Below, one piece after another: positions 4,600 to 43,415 of a stretch of 64,000 nucleotides of DNA. The translations under genes and the position numbers were made by a program. Below the pieces are notes generated by a model. That model searched no databases. It was not told the origin of the DNA and worked only from the letters and a program-made list of their open reading frames with translations. Each line of letters opens with the position of its first letter. The first letter of the stretch is position 1. Source of the stretch: Cerioporus squamosus (Eukaryota; Basidiomycota; Agaricomycetes; Polyporales; Polyporaceae); assembly GCA_022592435.1 (NCBI GenBank), contig JABYQS010000116.1, positions 60,133-124,132 of the forward strand. The letters run 5' to 3'.

Positions 4600-5890
4600 G
4601 CCGGGCAGGATTAACGGTGATCACAGCGCTGGGCGTTCAAAATTGCCTTACGATCGCCAAATGACAATCGGCATCGATCCTGTGAGGATTTCCATTTATC
4701 AGATCGTGGCGTCGACATCCCTACCGGACTCACTGTCTAGACTGAGGATAGCGGGCGATACCTCGGGGCTCGGCAAGAGCTATCGCGATCATTCCACGGG
4801 CATACAAAATTGAGGATGCAAGGCAGATCGGGCCATGAACGGGCGATCACTTCAAGGCGTTGGAGGTTTAGCAGGAGTGCCCTCGAGGACTCACGTATGT
4901 TTGCTAGATCCTTATCTGCATAGCCACCTTACCCCAGATCTCTAGATCTCATCGCTCAGCATTTACGATTCGCGTGCACCTTCTCTCCGACAGCCCAAAC
5001 CTTGTGGGCATGGCAAGGTTTTGGGGTGCCTCGAAGACGCACCTCGGCCCGTTCTTCCATCCGCCCTGGGGCTGCCGAACTTTCGCGAAGACAGGTTCGG
5101 AAAAATGGCCGAGGCTTGCAGCGCTACTGGGTTCACCTTCCTGTGCTGCGTGCAGCTTCTTGCTGGCTGTTGTCGCATCCCTCCTATGATCCTCGCCCTC
5201 TTCTGCTTCGCCAGACCACTGCCGTTCGGTTCGGTATCTTACCCGTTGGCACGTCCAAGTCACACCGTTCAGGACTACACCGCATCATCGCAGGAGGTCG
5301 GAGTGGGATACCCGATGCATGGTGTGACAGGATTCTGGCAAGGCATGCGGTGTGTTCGTAAACCTCTCTGCTACGATATGTGGGTGGACGAGATCATTCG
5401 TGATCGCCCTGCTTCAACTGTGCTGGCTTCAACCGTGCGTATCCCTGACTGCCTCTCCAAGCTGGTGAACGCTGATGTACGCCACATACAGATTACTCTC
5501 CGGCTTCGGCGCGCTATATCTGGTGAGTATCCTCACAGATCGCTCGACATGTACCCCCAGATCGCTCGACATGATCCTCACAGATCGCTCGACATGTACC
5601 CCACGGAGTTTCGCGGCCTCGAATGTTCTCATGTACGCCGTTCAGTATATATCACGCTTTTGTATTACGCTCGCCCCCGGCTCTTTGTCTGATAAAGACG
5701 TCACTATCTATATCTTCTGTACATCCTGCTACCATCCTCCCGAAGACTGATGACACCCGCGGAGCTCCGAGTGCTATACTTGGGTGAACTCTTCCCGCCG
5801 ACGCCCTCAAGCAGTTTCGCAATTGTCAATTTTGTACGATATACTCAGCGCAAAGCCGATCACCTATCGGCCTTGCATCTCACGTACTTC
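4600..5890. other. No recognisable gene; short tandem repeat inside
   Basis: No supported coding sequence. The stretch contains three copies of a 16-bp word (cagatcgctcgacatg) starting at 5,535, 5,558 and 5,581, giving a 23-bp local period. Confidence 0.4.
5535..5603. repeat. Short 23-bp-period tandem repeat, three copies
   Basis: The word cagatcgctcgacatg starts at 5,535, 5,558 and 5,581. The three copies are nearly identical with slight variation in the spacers. It looks like a young local duplication without coding context. Confidence 0.7.
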
Positions 5891-6210
5891 TTAGTGTGCA
5901 GTCAACAGATGTTCTTCTTCTAAGTAGATAGCGCTTTCAGGACATCGAGATGCGTGTTGAGTATGCGAGCGTGATCGACTGCAACGCATGTGTCCTTGCG
6001 ACGGCAGGTTGGACACATTCAGATTTCTATCCTGTCCGGCACTGAGGGCTTCTGTGGCTCTGGTGCCCCATATGAGGCGCAATATAGTGGCTGCGGTCGT
6101 CGTAAGAGAGGCATGTCCACTTCCTCGCACAGTAGATACTATACTACTGGGCTGCAGATAGTCCGACTGTGTCCAGAGTCCCACCATCTTCTTCGGCGTG
6201 CCTGTGCGTC

Positions 6211-6230
6211 GGCGGCGGCGGCGGCGGCGG
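6211..6230. repeat. (GGC)n microsatellite
   Basis: Six to seven uninterrupted GGC triplets lie close to the end of the second FWR...LLWA remnant. On the minus strand they would read as a poly-Arg or poly-Ala/Pro run if translated. There is no evidence that they are coding. Confidence 0.75.
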
Positions 6231-6306
6231 AAGCAGGAAGGCAGCAGGTAATGACATCGCACCCTGCAAGTTCGCCATGGATAAAGATTAGCACCCAAAG
6301 AGACTT

Positions 6307-6665
6307 TCATCCGCCGGGAGAACTCACCGGACAGCGCGTCACCGCCCACAAAAGCAACGGTGCCAGTAGGCTCTCAGTGCGTTCCGCAACGCCGAAATGC
6401 GTGCAGTATGAGACGACGTCTGACATGACTTCATCAAACTCGCCCCAGAGACATGGGATGCTATTGGCACCGTCGTCTGCTCGGAAATAAAGCATGCATC
6501 CGACGGTTGCAATGACGGTGCGGGCTTGACGGCGTGTGCATACGTGTAGGAGGTCCGCGCGGATGTACGATCGCCAGAACGGGCTTGGGTCGTGCACGTG
6601 TGCTCTCATATGGTCGAGAGATCGTGGAATGATAAGCTGCGGGCCAGGTATTGTCAGTCGACGCG
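6307..6665 (-). pseudogene. Paralogous gene fragment, copy 2 (FWRS...GCMLYF...PLLLWA)
   Basis: This minus-strand exon starts after a CCGCAG acceptor with LIIPRSLDHMR. It continues through FWRSYIRADLL, TVGCMLYF, LWGEF and LLAPLLLWA to a GTGAGT donor. It matches the fragment at 3.9-4.3 kb motif by motif. A frame farther upstream (about 6,660-6,950, minus) could be its preceding exon. The product is unknown. Two such copies 2.4 kb apart suggest a local duplication of an Agaricomycete-specific hypothetical gene, now partly decayed. Confidence 0.35.
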
Positions 6666-7019: not shown

Positions 7020-8900
7020 TAATCTACAGGGATGGCTCAATGTGTCTGCGCCTTCAGCTGATTCCAGGTAGAATCAGTCTGGACGCGGTCCAAACATTCC
7101 TTCCCTGCCTGTCCCGCGCATCCACCACTCGTTCTCGGGTGTGTCCTGTCCTTTGGGCTCGCTGTCCAACCTGAGCCCTGTCCTTCTCCTTGCCATGCCG
7201 CCTCAAATCCCTTTCCCGAGTTCGGTAACCGAAAGCCCAGAAGATGTCAAGAGCACTCACCGGACATTGCCTGCGGGGTAGCCGTAGGTGTGGCGGAATC
7301 TGCAGTCATAGCTAGTGCCCGCGATATTAGTGACTCGCGCGCAATATGACATGAAACCGCGACTCACTGCGATTCTTCGACCTGAAAGTTGCTCTACTTC
7401 GCCGTGAGGACAAGGTGCCCAAGTTGCTCCCGAGCCGGTTCACCAGCCGAACGTACACTGAGAATACAGCAAAGATGGTAGAGGGTGCGAACAACTACCT
7501 GGTGGTTCAGGACTTACTTATAAGTACAGTGTTTGGCCTGCCAGTGGACTGACGCCGCTGTGGCTGAGCATGCTTGCTCGTCCTCGCTTCACCTCTCACC
7601 TATCACACCCTATTACCGTCTCTGTGCACGATCCACCACTCGCGAGAGGGCCGCCATGGTCATGGTACCGGATTCAGCGCCATCTTCCAAGCTCGGGGCC
7701 TCGGGGCCTACCCAGCGACGCCGATGTCTGCCAGTGACGACTGCGCGACTGCGCGATGCGCTCTGCACAAAGGTATGTCGCCATTTGCTGACCCTCACCT
7801 TCTCTCATCTGTACTCATTGTAGCACCGTTGCGACTCGCGGGTGATCAATCACTCGCGCGCGATGAGCGGGGGCGCACTGGACCTAACGTCGCGCCGCAA
7901 AACCTTGCGCCAGGAGGACTCACAGGTCCTCCTCTGGCTCCGAGACCGATCAAGCCCCACGAAGCCGCTCTCATATCTATCGACACGTGCGCCCAAGCTG
8001 AACATGCGTACCCCGAGGAGCACGCGTCGCGACCCGCCCACAGTGTAGGTCAAGGTATTTGCGCCGTTGCAGCGCAAACAGGTCGACATTCCCCACGCAG
8101 AAAATCGAACGTGAGTGGAGCCGGTACCATTAAACTCTGAGTTGACGTTCTCCAAGGTGTATGGCAGTCGGAGACTTGCCCAGGTCGCGAAGCTCCGCCA
8201 GCACAGAGGCTGCAACGTCGCACCGACTCCGCACGCCGGCGCCATGGACTAGAGTCCTCCTCGGTCAGGCACGACCCTAGGATGAACAAATCACTCGGTC
8301 AGGCGCAGCCCTAGCATGAATGAGTCACTCGTTCATGCTAACCGACAGCGATTGCCCGTATAATTCTAGCGGAGGCACGAGTAGGCCGTCATGTTGTTGA
8401 GCTGCGTCGCGGACTGCAGGAGCGTGAACGGGAGGCCCGCGCGTCGCTTGTCCTAGTCTCCAAGGGTAACCCGTGGTCCTCCGAGCAGTACGATGGTTCT
8501 TCAAGGGCTTTGCGAGCTTCCCCGCTAGCCCTGCTAGGTCAGTCGGCTTGCGTCGGGCACCCCAGGGGCTCGCACTTCGCGCCGTAGGCTCACTATGCAC
8601 TCGTAGGCTCCCATTATTCCCTCCCCTGTGTCTACCTGTCCAGCCCGAGCATCAAAGTCGAAGTCCCGCAAGACATATAGCGCACTGTTCTTGTTGTTTG
8701 TCGGGAAATACATAGGATGAGCGGTTATCCAGCATCTGTCGACCTTCCTGTCGCTGGATGTGCGTGCAGACGACGTCGTGTGTCGACCTCGCGACACCTG
8801 AGACAGTCAGAAAGACTACATCATATGTAGCCTGCCTTCTTGAACCCGTGACCCATTCACAACGACGTGCGGCTTACTAGATCCACCATTGCCACTTCAC
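7020..8900. other. No recognisable gene
   Basis: Short frames only. One 34-bp tandem duplication (8,261-8,328) is present. No conserved motif or coherent exon chain was seen on either strand. Confidence 0.45.
8261..8328. repeat. 34-bp tandem duplication
   Basis: The word tcggtcaggc starts at 8,261 and again at 8,295. The 34-bp units share most bases (ccctag.atgaa...tcac). A partial third unit follows. Confidence 0.6.
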
Positions 8901-38989: not shown

Positions 38990-39306
38990 GATCAACCTAT
39001 GGGCGTACTTCACGCCATAATAGAGACGACAATAGTGGAGTCCAGTACGGCGAGCTGTATGATGACCGTCACAGGATGGACAGAAGTGGTATCTATACAA
39101 CTCACCGACAGAGATCCGACGATCATGACCTCGGAGAAACCGCGTGGCCTGTCTGGTCCTCTCTTGTCGAGTATTCCGCCACATGCCGTGCGCATTGAGA
39201 TCGAGGTGACTGCATGATATGACGGCCGCTTGACGGATGGCGCTTTGACGATGCATGAGGAGCAGATCGTGCCCTATATTTGGTTGTAGCATTACAATCA
39301 GCATGT

Positions 39307-39353
39307 ACAGCTGGCGTCAAAACCAATGCCCGACGTTCAGACGCGCAGTTTGT
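39307..39353 (+). repeat. Left terminal inverted repeat of Tc1/mariner element
   Basis: The 47-bp sequence starting TACAGCTGGCGTC and ending GCAGTTTG is repeated exactly, inverted, at 43,369-43,415. The outer TA (39,307-39,308) is the expected Tc1/mariner target duplication, so the element proper starts at 39,309. Inside the perfect part the similarity continues imperfectly almost to the transposase ATG. Confidence 0.95.
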
Positions 39354-39455
39354 GACGCCGAACGCGCGCCAAAATCCAAACAATTCCCGAAATTCCCTGC
39401 TGCTGTACTCGCTCGTCGTACTCCGCTTGTCCTTCAGTTTCTCCTCCTAGAGGCC

Positions 39456-40588
39456 ATGCCAAATCGCAAGATCAGCGAAGACATACAATACCGTGCGGTA
39501 GAACTTCTCTCGTTGGGGAGGAAGAGCGATGACGTTGCCACTACCCTCGGTGTCTCAAGACGCAGCGTCGAACGTTGGTGGACCCGGTACCACCGCAATG
39601 GCGGTGAGATCCCAAGATACACGTCTCTTTCATGTGGCCGGCCGCGAAGGTTCACACCGGCACTGATGGAGGACCTCCGGGATCTCATGGTACGTGCACC
39701 TTCCATGTACCTCGACGAGATTGTCCGCTGGTTCGCCATCCACCGCGGCCTCTTCGTCTCCTCTTCCACCATTCAGCGAGAAATCGAGCGACTTGGGTTC
39801 ACGCTCAAGAGGCTCCGTCGCATCGCGGCTCAACGTGACGAAGTGTTCCGTCAGCAGTGGCTGCGCGACATTACGTCTCGCTTCACGGCGGAGCAACTCG
39901 TCTTCGCAGACGAATCCAGCAAGGACAACCGGACAGTCCTGCGGAGGTTTGGACGTGCAGCGTCAGGGCAAAGAGCAGTGGAGTATGTCTCTGCAGACCG
40001 CGGAGCGCGTTACAGCATCCTCCCTGCGCTGTCGCTGCACGGTCTGCTGACGGTGAGGGTGGTGCGGGGCTCGGTGGATGGGCTTGAATTCTACGATTGG
40101 GTTCTGTTCGATCTGGTGCGTCCAGCTCATTCCATTCAACTTTCTGGTCGCCAACTAGGACTTCACATATCAGCTCCCCAAAATGAACCCGTTCCCTGGC
40201 CCGAACAGTGTCCTCATTGTGGACAACTGCCGCACACACAAGAGTCAAGCTGTGCGGGACGCAGTCGAGGCTGCAGGTGAGTGTTGTGTTGCAATTCTGG
40301 CATGTATGACGCTGACAACGTATATGCCAGGTTGTCTCTACATATTTCTCCCAGCATATTCACCTGACCTCAACCCAATTGAAGAAGCGTTCAGCTGCGG
40401 TATGTCTCCATTATATACTCCTACAGTATATCAACTCATCTCCCGCCTTAGTGAAGCATCACCTGCGGCGCCACAGCGAGCAATATGTGGACAGTGTCAC
40501 ACCGGAAGCAGACCTCGTACACGCCTGTCTTGTTGCGGTCACTCCAGAGAAGGCGCGCGGCTGGTACCACCATAGTGGTTACTTGTAG
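39456..40588 (+). CDS. Tc1/mariner-type transposase (DD34E)
   Basis: Cut-and-paste transposase, 322 aa. Exons 39456-40115, 40174-40276, 40331-40399 and 40452-40588 join in frame without lesions. The N-terminal part has a helix-turn-helix (about residues 10-45, AVELLSLGRKSDDVATTLGVSRRSV) and a second basic DNA-binding region with GRPRRFT (AT-hook-like, 61-67). The catalytic DDE_3 core has D152 (VFADES), D237 (LIVDNC) and E272 (SPDLNPIEEAFS), with 34 residues between the last two, the canonical DD34E spacing of Tc1 transposases. The C-terminus (RHSEQYVDS...GWYHHSGYL) has the usual end of fungal members. Three short introns in a mariner transposase are common in basidiomycetes. Confidence 0.95.
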
Positions 40589-40891
40589 TACCTTGTACCC
40601 TCTTTTGAATCGATCCTTGCTGTTCCATTCCAATTATTGAGGTCTTAGATTACCAACGAAATGAGTGACGGCAGCAAACTGGTAGGTATCAGTATCGAAC
40701 GGCATTACGAGTGCAGATAGCGAGAGACAGGGCTGATGGAGTGGGGAGGGCTGCACTAGGAAGAAGGGTAAGGTAGAACAGGATGATCAGCGACACGAAG
40801 GCATATTAAACAAGTGTACTCATGGACCGAGACTCGGAACAAAAGGACAGCGTGAACTCAAGAAGAGACAGTGCAAAGTCGAGAAGATAAA

Positions 40892-43266
40892 CTAGGAATG
40901 ACGACTCGAGAAGGAGTAATGAGGGTTATATGTGGAGGGGCCAGGCTGAGCATGTGAGGTCGGAGCTGAATGCGCCGGCATAAATGCCGGCAGAGGAGGA
41001 GCCACAACTGGTGCCGCGCCGGGATAGGTGTACATCCCAGAGTATGTCGCTCCTTGGGCGGGAACACCGGCATAGAACTGAGCGGGAGGCATCACTGGTG
41101 GGGGCGCATGCATTGCAGGGATGGTTAGCTGCGAGGATGCATAGCCAGGGAACACCCCAGCTGTTGGAACCATCTGCGGAGCGCCATAACCGACGGACAC
41201 AGGAGCGACGCTGCCCGAGTTGGGTTGGACTGCATGCGCGGGCAAAGATCCCCCGTGTACTTGACTCAGGATTTGCGGAGATCGCGACCTGTTTGCGTCG
41301 CTAGCCTTCCACCATTCGCTCCCAATGGGAGGCGTTCGCAAATCCACACCAGGCTGATTCTGCAGTGTACGTGTTAGTGCATGTTCCGCATATCGAGAGC
41401 AGTTCACTGCACCTTCAAGAGAGCGCACGCCCATGCTTTTACTCGTATGTCTGTGAGCTCAAAGTGCCAGCCCAGAGGTGCATAGTAGAAGCACCGCATC
41501 CCTGGATGCACGCCGCAGGCGTCAACTTCCCCATGAAGCCATAGCAGGTACTTCACCAGTTTAGGAACATCGTCGTCGAGAGACCCCTGTTGCAAACGTG
41601 AGTAGTAGCAGGTCATGAGCATGGCCTGGACATACGGTCTTGAAGCTGTTAGAATGAGCGGGGATAGCAGGGACTTGACTTGAACGCGGCAAAACTTGAA
41701 GATGTGATTGCGCGGGCGGCAGGTGGTCTAGTCCAGATGGCGGCAGATGCTGTTGCGGTAGCCCAGAAGCGGAGTCAGCCGAGGGAGCCTGCAGCCATGG
41801 CTAAAAATGTCATGAAGGAGCATCAGCAGTGATCAAGTGGATTTCGGGATGAGGACTCACCAGCTCTGCATGGTGCCGCACTGTGATCGGCTGAGCCATA
41901 CTGATCACGATGAACTCATCGCCACCTAGCGCGTCATTCGCCACGGTCTTCTTGAGCATGTTCATGAACACGTGGAAGGAAGACTCGTCGTGTAAGGGGA
42001 ACCAGCGTGTCGTCTTCAGAGCCTTGCCCTTGGCAGCAACCCACGACCACCGCATGGATGTCGTGACAAGATTCTCCTTCCCCACCGAGACAGCGGTGGC
42101 GGCATCTTGCAACAACGTCTCCCATGTCGTATGATTGTTGATCTGGATCGGGCCTAACTGGAAGGGAGACGGAGTGAAGACCTTCTCTGAGCCGCGTGCG
42201 GTGGCCGGCTTCACGACCTGGGCCGGGAGGGTGACTTCGATGAAAGCAGGGACGCTGAACGCGTCCAACGCCTTGATATTCGCGAGCGCGCCGTTGATCT
42301 TCCCACCACTGCCGAGAGGCCGTCCGCGCTTGCGCTTCTTCGTCTCTTCCTCGAACTCCGCAACGTCCGGATCCTCCGTGTCGCTGGCCCTCTCCAGAGA
42401 ATCGTCCCGCACCTGCAACTTGCCAGATGATGTGCGCGCCTTCTTCTTCGCCGGTTCTGCATGGTCGGGAGGCTTGGTCTCTGCACCACCGTGACGCGGA
42501 GCCTTGCGCAAGGGTTTCTGGTCGAGCGGAGTGGATGGTCGAGCCCGAGGTGGCAGAGAAGCCTTCTCAGGCTGACGCTTCGAGCTGGGCACATCACGGG
42601 GAGGAAGCCGAATGGTGAGACGGTTGCTCTTGGTAGGAGTAGTGCTACGGGCCCGGCCCTTGCCTGTACGTGTATCAAGGTTAGCGAAGTACTCACACGC
42701 AATATGATATGCTCACCTTTTCCCTGAGGAGTTACGGGCTCCTCCTCAGTCTTGGACTGCCCTCCCTCAACACCCTCAGCATCCGACTCCGTCTCCCGAG
42801 AAGGCCTCCTACTCCCCAAACCCGAGTCCTCGTCATCGTGACTTCCAGCGGCAAGATCGTCGCCGGCGGTAGCGCTGGCAGCATCCGACAAGTCTTCGCT
42901 ACCCTGCACCTTGACAATCAACCCGCTGAGAATCTCGGCAGGCACTGGAGCAGGAGGTGACGAGGCCTCGCTGGCCTCCCAGTCGCGCTCGAAGCCGCAC
43001 TCGGCGAGATGTGCCACTTCTGACAGTGACGGCAGTGAGACATCCCGTCTCCATCCTTCGCAGCGCTCCTCGAAGCCCAAACGGAGATCGATCCAGTCGT
43101 CGGCTTGAGCGTCGAGACCATCGATAGAATGCGTATTGACTTCGACGGCACGCAACAACCCGCGGTTGAGCTTCCGTAGCTTCTCGGCGTTTGACTCCGG
43201 GGGAGGAACCGTCTGCTCCTCCCAACCTTCTGGCACTTCCTCCCCCGCCCCGTGGGCCTCAGACAT
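40892..43266 (-). CDS. Accessory protein of the Tc1/mariner element (AT-hook-like, unknown function)
   Basis: Five exons (43266-42717, 42663-41861, 41800-41636, 41586-41413, 41359-40892) give 719 aa with every junction in frame. Residues 1-100: acidic/helical region with paired Trp-rich helices (DDWIDLRLGFEERCEGWRRD). 120-300: low-complexity, ending in a basic AT-hook-like KKRKRGRPLGSGGK (292-305). 310-450: a folded-looking domain (ALDAFSVPAFIEVTLP, TTWETLLQDAATAV, RWFPLHDESSFHVFMNML, EFIVISMAQPI). 507-564: a second conserved block (LDDDVPKLVKYLLWLHGE, WHFELTDIRVKAWACALLK). 565-719: a Pro/Ala/Tyr-rich tail. I recall the last block, as a general impression only, from Agaricomycete hypothetical proteins. 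Its place inside the inverted repeats argues for a role in transposition or its control. Confidence 0.85.
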
Positions 43267-43368
43267 AGTTAGAGAGTGTTACGAAGTAGTGTAGAAGCGA
43301 GTATTGTAGTACAGAGCAGCAGCCAACATTTTTCGATTTTTTCGATTTTTTGCGCGTGGTCGGAGTTG

Positions 43369-43415
43369 CAAACTGCGCGTCTGAACGTCGGGCATTGGTT
43401 TTGACGCCAGCTGTA
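43369..43415 (-). repeat. Right terminal inverted repeat of Tc1/mariner element
   Basis: Exact 47-bp inverted copy of 39,307-39,353. The final TA (43,414-43,415) is the target-site duplication. The accessory gene starts 102 nt inside it. Confidence 0.95.

Follow-up and report, generated by a model that had tools for sequence, protein, structure and literature searches.

We examined a 64,000-nucleotide stretch of the Cerioporus squamosus genome (the window; contig JABYQS010000116.1, positions 60,133 to 124,132, here C20) containing a 4.1-kb transposable element with two convergent genes, one encoding a DD34E transposase and the other a second protein, here called ORF2 (open reading frame 2). 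The element, which looks autonomous, probably belongs to a fungal lineage of the IS630/Tc1/mariner (ITm) group in which a convergent DD34E transposase is paired with a transposon-specific accessory ORF2. Genome searches covered a single genome, the contigs of the C. squamosus assembly, with only the best candidates scored, and the locus counts are lower bounds. In this genome the two-gene arrangement characterizes the whole lineage and not a single locus: a long second gene is convergent with the transposase at 8/8 loci, representing seven families (contigs C20, C44, C105, C296, C756, C156, C618 and C201).

The window element and its two genes

The element proper (39308–43413) lies between TA dinucleotides at 39306–39307 and 43414–43415, the putative target-site duplication; the TA duplication is seen at empty sites of relatives (see below). 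The two ends share 47 identical bases including the TA. Without the TA, they form perfect 45-bp terminal inverted repeats (TIRs) at 39308–39352 (+ strand) and 43369–43413 (− strand). The left repeat continues as a weaker match to 39393, and the arms are 84% complementary across 88 nt. Chance does not account for a perfect inverted pair of 47 bp within 4 kb. There is no empty allele at the window locus, as both alleles are filled. One other copy of the element was found, the allelic one on contig C310, where the contig breaks off inside the element; the two agree at 99.2% identity across 6.2 kb, 3 kb of it flanking sequence.

Window gene models are predictions spliced by hand, with a splice-site script run as a second model. 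The transposase gene runs on the + strand from an ATG at 39456 to a stop at 40588, with three introns of 52–58 nt, and encodes 322 amino acids. Exon 1 (39456–40115) contains the helix-turn-helix (HTH) and the first catalytic Asp, exon 2 (40174–40276) the second catalytic Asp, exon 3 (40331–40399) the catalytic Glu within NPIEEAF, and exon 4 (40452–40588) the C-terminus and stop. The script agrees with exons 1, 2 and 4 and places the end of intron 2 24 bases later, so that exon 3 begins at 40355 and the protein has 314 residues. We kept the 322-residue model because it matches the C44 transposase throughout. Pfam identifies DDE_3 (E 4.7e-26) and HTH_23 (E 5.2e-6) in the protein, and the D-D34-E spacing was counted by eye. 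A profile of four transposases of the two-gene lineage matches Pax, Mos1 and Sleeping Beauty chains. The window element thus combines a DDE transposase with an N-terminal HTH, a TA duplication and TIRs, the features of ITm elements. A single gene and a short element are typical of the group, if not strictly defining, and are found neither in the window element nor in its relatives.

An earlier note on this DNA, made from the sequence alone, had proposed an element at 39309–43413 with perfect 47-bp inverted repeats, TA flanks and an internal DD34E transposase. The repeats and the transposase are borne out, as is the right boundary; the left boundary moves outward by one base.

ORF2 is encoded on the − strand from 43266 to 40892, in five exons separated by four introns of 49–60 nt, and in the hand model comprises 719 residues without stops. 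Exon 1 (42717–43266) is acidic and of low complexity. Exon 2 (41861–42663) includes a basic low-complexity part, an AT-hook-like RGRP (~42340–42314) and, in the predicted structure, a possible small α/β domain (~42160–41879). Exon 3 (41636–41800) is followed by exon 4 (41413–41586), which contains a Cys/His...Trp motif (41517–41428). The script reproduces exons 1, 2 and 3 and reads exon 4 on to a stop at 41404. Exon 5 (40892–41359), a Pro/Tyr-rich tail with the stop codon, was placed by hand. We favor the 719-residue model because the BLASTP alignment to the C44 model runs past the last intron, into exon 5, to residue 652. Pfam gives no hit for window ORF2 at E values up to 1, and the best phmmer match of ORF2 to PDB sequences has E 0.56. 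In single-sequence AlphaFold models, the part preceding the motif is a low-confidence helix-strand-strand-helix-strand arrangement, which at a guess could be a ubiquitin-like fold, and the motif region consists of a helix, two strands and a helix.

The two genes are arranged almost symmetrically, with start codons 148 and 147 bp from their respective ends and stop codons 303 bp apart (from coordinates). Of subterminal repeats that the second protein might bind, the left end has only a 10-nt inverted pair and the right end only a 9-bp tandem pair.

Two-gene relatives and insertion at TA

A search with the window transposase found the loci on C44, C105, C296, C756, C156 and C618; ORF2 searches recovered C44 and added a relic on C201. 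The ORF2 queries were the window and C156 proteins, core pieces of C105 and C618, and the first 504 residues of C756, with C44 ORF2 left out of the set. Core pieces were used because the ORF2 N-terminus of C105/C296 and the C-terminus of C618 look unreliable in the script models. A transposase search with a C618-based query found no additional locus. The allelic C310 copy is not among the eight loci counted.

Inverted repeats enclose both genes in six copies (five families) of 3.9–5.7 kb. Besides the window element, these are the elements on C44 (3.9 kb, 31-bp repeats), C105 and C296 (5.1 kb, ~60-bp repeats), C756 (4.9 kb, 367-bp repeats) and C156 (5.7 kb, 475-bp repeats), each with TA at both ends. 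The length of the terminal repeats in these related families varies between 31 and 475 bp, and the long repeats (arms at L055 3373–3847 and 8581–9055, and at L054 2230–2596 and 6751–7117) are 99–100% identical between arms. The transposases of the window and C44 differ in intron positions from those of C756, C156 and C105, while all six ORF2 models have one intron position in common.

According to the earlier note, the two-gene structure would be confirmed by a large number of 4-kb copies with both genes between identical ends. Instead, the genome has few copies of several diverged families, with transposase identities of 33–61% among five near-complete models. Its central proposal, a two-gene form of mariner element, is supported by the second gene at all eight loci. 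ORF2 is not found mainly outside such ends in this genome, a pattern the note had regarded as contrary to its proposal: matches are the elements, the C201 relic and N-terminal pieces at C128, C44:75728 and C685, of which C128 was the only one examined.

In the C105/C296 element, ORF2 is separated from the right end by a third gene, which encodes a GNAT acetyltransferase (PF00583, E 2.9e-6; L052 ~7400–8400 for C105 and L053 ~5300–6330 for C296). A GNAT search found two further copies, on C54 and C842, and none in the element of any other family. The copy on C54 belongs to a truncated element, which has the same right end but is missing the left portion.

Comparison of filled and empty sites shows that whole units insert at TA. 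The same 5.1-kb element, 97.4% identical, occupies unrelated sites on C105 and C296. A search with joined flanks found empty sites for two of the five elements tested. The empty site of the C156 element (contig C24, 98%) has the target TA in single copy, and that of the C105 element (contig C123, 91%) differs by one base at the TA. The TA duplication, for which the earlier note had pointed to empty sites, is thus borne out at these two relatives, the second with its one-base difference. The right end of the window element also matched at 20 other places. Seven of the eight examined are miniature inverted-repeat transposable elements (MITEs) of 493–506 bp that are 96–99% alike (e.g. L011 356–848, contig C57). 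Empty sites were found on other contigs for two of the seven MITEs, one exact (C334) and one with a 4-bp indel nearby (C944). The C128 copy is an internal-deletion derivative of the C156 element; the copies without ORF2 (the MITEs and C128) lack most of both genes.

ORF2 similarity between families and transposase phylogeny

A motif of similarly spaced C, [HC], C, H and W residues is present in 6/6 ORF2 models. In 141,630 control residues its regular expression matches only window ORF2 itself. The motif is supported by two further observations. The C201 relic, which was not used to define it, contains an in-frame CxxC...C...HxHLT, with the frame lost before the Trp. In addition, a phase-0 intron lies 4–6 residues after the motif Trp in all six models, five of them built by a script blind to the motif and the window model by hand. 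A second phase-0 intron, 50–52 residues before the Trp, is common to the window, C44 and C618.

BLASTP links ORF2 of the window to that of C44 (E 2e-19) and ORF2 of C756 to that of C156 (E 1e-8). These are the two closest pairs by transposase (61% and 56% identity), as expected if both genes travel together. HHalign gives weak connections of window+C44 to C618 (E 4e-4, probability 36) and of C756+C156 to C105 (E 1e-3, probability 21). The C-terminal stretches of C156, C105 and C618 ORF2 look SAM-like by eye; Pfam returned no SAM match in C156 and C105 ORF2, the C618 C-terminus lying outside the scan. Genome searches with the ORF2 queries found no host paralogue, and ORF2 as a host gene is rejected as far as searched. 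The first 515 residues of C156 ORF2 had no match in viral contigs.

The same genome contains single-gene Tc1 elements. The copy on C57 is 1.6 kb long with TA ends, TIRs of ~30 bp, one open frame of 363 residues from stop to stop, and no ORF2. A decayed copy of this type lies at C201:203785, and near-identical match scores occur at C246 (two), C468 and C785. The C57 element shares ITm membership, TA ends and TIRs with the window element and differs in its length, its single gene and its clade. No clear paired ends were seen at the C14 and C32 transposase loci. In the second of two trees, computed without rows L072 (probably in the wrong frame) and L075 (long) that the first tree had included, the three Tc1 rows (C57, C14 and C32) group apart with full support. 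The two-gene transposases are placed not with Tc1 but with four IS630-like rows from viral contigs. IS630-like relatives of the transposase in viral contigs show 27–39% identity.

A pogo-like DDE element, recognized by eye, was seen at L062 972–4825 (C268; ~3.85 kb, 28-bp inverted repeat, a long Ser/Thr-rich C-terminal frame), with related sequence in L063 (C129).

Precedents, the role of ORF2 and alternatives

Tc1/mariner elements are regarded as self-sufficient one-gene elements, hence the use of Sleeping Beauty and Mos1 in foreign hosts. The closest precedents for the arrangement described here are the ciliate elements TBE and Tec. TBE elements of Oxytricha resemble the window element in combining a DD34E ITm transposase with further genes, one of them encoding a zinc-finger protein that has been proposed to act as an accessory factor, and have TIRs of ~80 bp (PMC7325037, PMC12242761). 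They differ in having three ORFs, a domain predicted to be a kinase, telomere-like ends and ciliate hosts. Tec elements of Euplotes are multi-gene ITm elements with long TIRs and one ORF in the complement (PMC7325037), and differ in their site-specific recombinase, the ~700-bp length of their TIRs and their ciliate hosts. The window element, with two genes and an ORF2 that matches no Pfam family, lacks the distinguishing features of either. The ciliate accessory proteins have been called surprising for the ITm group (PMC12242761).

Outside ITm, PIF/Harbinger, Pangu and Nuwa elements (PHIS) resemble the window element in having two ORFs, a DDE transposase and a second protein. This protein has a Myb/SANT domain in several groups and no known motif in Pangu, and Pangu and NuwaII occur in basidiomycetes too (PMC4482050). 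PHIS elements differ in their transposase family and in their 3-bp target-site duplications, for example TWA (PIF/Harbinger) or CWG (NuwaI), vs TA. Pfam found no Myb/SANT match in window ORF2 and five relatives (two as core pieces). Among the papers listed by full-text searches of open-licence PMC literature, none describes a fungal two-gene Tc1/mariner element, judged by titles and abstract openings.

ORF2 is most likely a transposon-borne accessory protein that binds DNA or chromatin, a function suggested by its sequence. The simplest account is that the element encodes it to work together with the transposase, in line with the proposal for the TBE accessory proteins (PMC12242761, PMC7325037) and with the two-ORF PHIS elements (PMC4482050). 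Each gene would be transcribed from its end of the element towards the middle. The transposase would bind the ends and cut and join at TA, and ORF2, as a DNA- or chromatin-binding partner, may help with pairing of the ends, entry into the nucleus, targeting or evasion of silencing. The features behind this proposed role are its acidic and basic low-complexity parts, the possible α/β domain, the Cys/His motif and, in some families, the SAM-like C-terminus. These proteins probably also mobilize, in trans, the short MITEs that have the same ends.

A number of observations weigh against a coherent and functional two-gene lineage. C618, which starts at a contig edge, and the decayed C201 have no paired ends. 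The earlier note had considered that transposases with the same ends but lacking ORF2 would count against a two-gene form; the clade loci in this genome speak for that form, with 0/8 lacking ORF2, a count that leaves out five DDE_3 matches, at C246 (two), C468, C785 and C201:272673. For window ORF2, the splice-site script leaves the last intron, with its weak donor GTGCAG, unplaced and yields 566 residues. The C310 allele lacks single bases at 41504, 41688, 41783 and 42121, all in ORF2 exons, which are either sequencing or assembly errors or real frameshifts marking the decay of one allele. Of the intact five-exon, 719-residue gene in the earlier note, the length and the absence of stops stand in the hand model; its intactness is qualified by the script model and by the four missing bases. 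BLASTP similarity of ORF2 is not significant between most families, only the two pairs above being so, and the remaining four HHalign comparisons have probabilities below 1 (overall range 0.1–36). The motif expression occurred in 0/2000 shuffles per protein (0/12,000 in total), a test made partly circular by drawing the motif from the same six proteins. The ORF2 domain models are weak (predicted local distance difference test 43 and 67) and have no Foldseek match at E ≤ 0.001. Evidence of selection is weak: between C105 and C296, the ratio of nonsynonymous to synonymous divergence is ~0.55 for both genes (transposase, 297 codons, 0.0105/0.0187; ORF2, 416 codons of three exons, 0.0150/0.0275), and C296 ORF2 has two internal stops. 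Finally, a single origin of the two-gene transposases is not supported: bootstrap trees with a branch that separates them from all other rows make up 11% (first tree) and 22% (second tree).

A bolder reading, which we advance only tentatively, is that these elements form a deep fungal ITm branch, nearer IS630 than Tc1, that is an obligate two-protein system with a co-diverged Cys/His accessory family, the first outside ciliates.

The alternatives to a transposase partner concern the origin and task of ORF2. It could be an anti-silencing or target-choice factor outside the cutting complex, comparable to VANC or mudrB, which we consider rather unlikely. The basic and acidic low-complexity parts, the AT-hook-like stretch of the window copy and the Cys/His motif would suit such a factor, and nothing separates it from a core accessory role. 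We regard as improbable that ORF2 is cargo, derived from a host gene that an ancestral element picked up a single time and that has travelled along ever since, whether or not it benefits the host. Such gene capture does seem to happen in the lineage, as the GNAT gene of the C105/C296 element alone suggests, and ORF2 has no recognized transposition domain. However, a second gene is present in all seven families despite transposases down to 33% identity, a divergence over which a gene of no use would be unlikely to persist. The searches also turned up no host paralogue, and the convergent orientation is constant. The chance that nested or adjacent insertions merely put an unrelated gene between the window ends is negligible and we reject it: most described Tc1/mariner elements are single-gene (PMC7325037, PMC12242761), but coincidence has no support beyond the single window locus, and the convergent second gene at 8/8 loci, the six copies with ends around both genes and the two empty sites without the whole unit stand against it.

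For the transposase partner that we favor, the lineage offers a tractable system in which to study the partner's role, with short ends, natural MITE substrates, and filled and empty sites in one assembly. If every family keeps the second gene, ITm chemistry would have recruited partners more than once.

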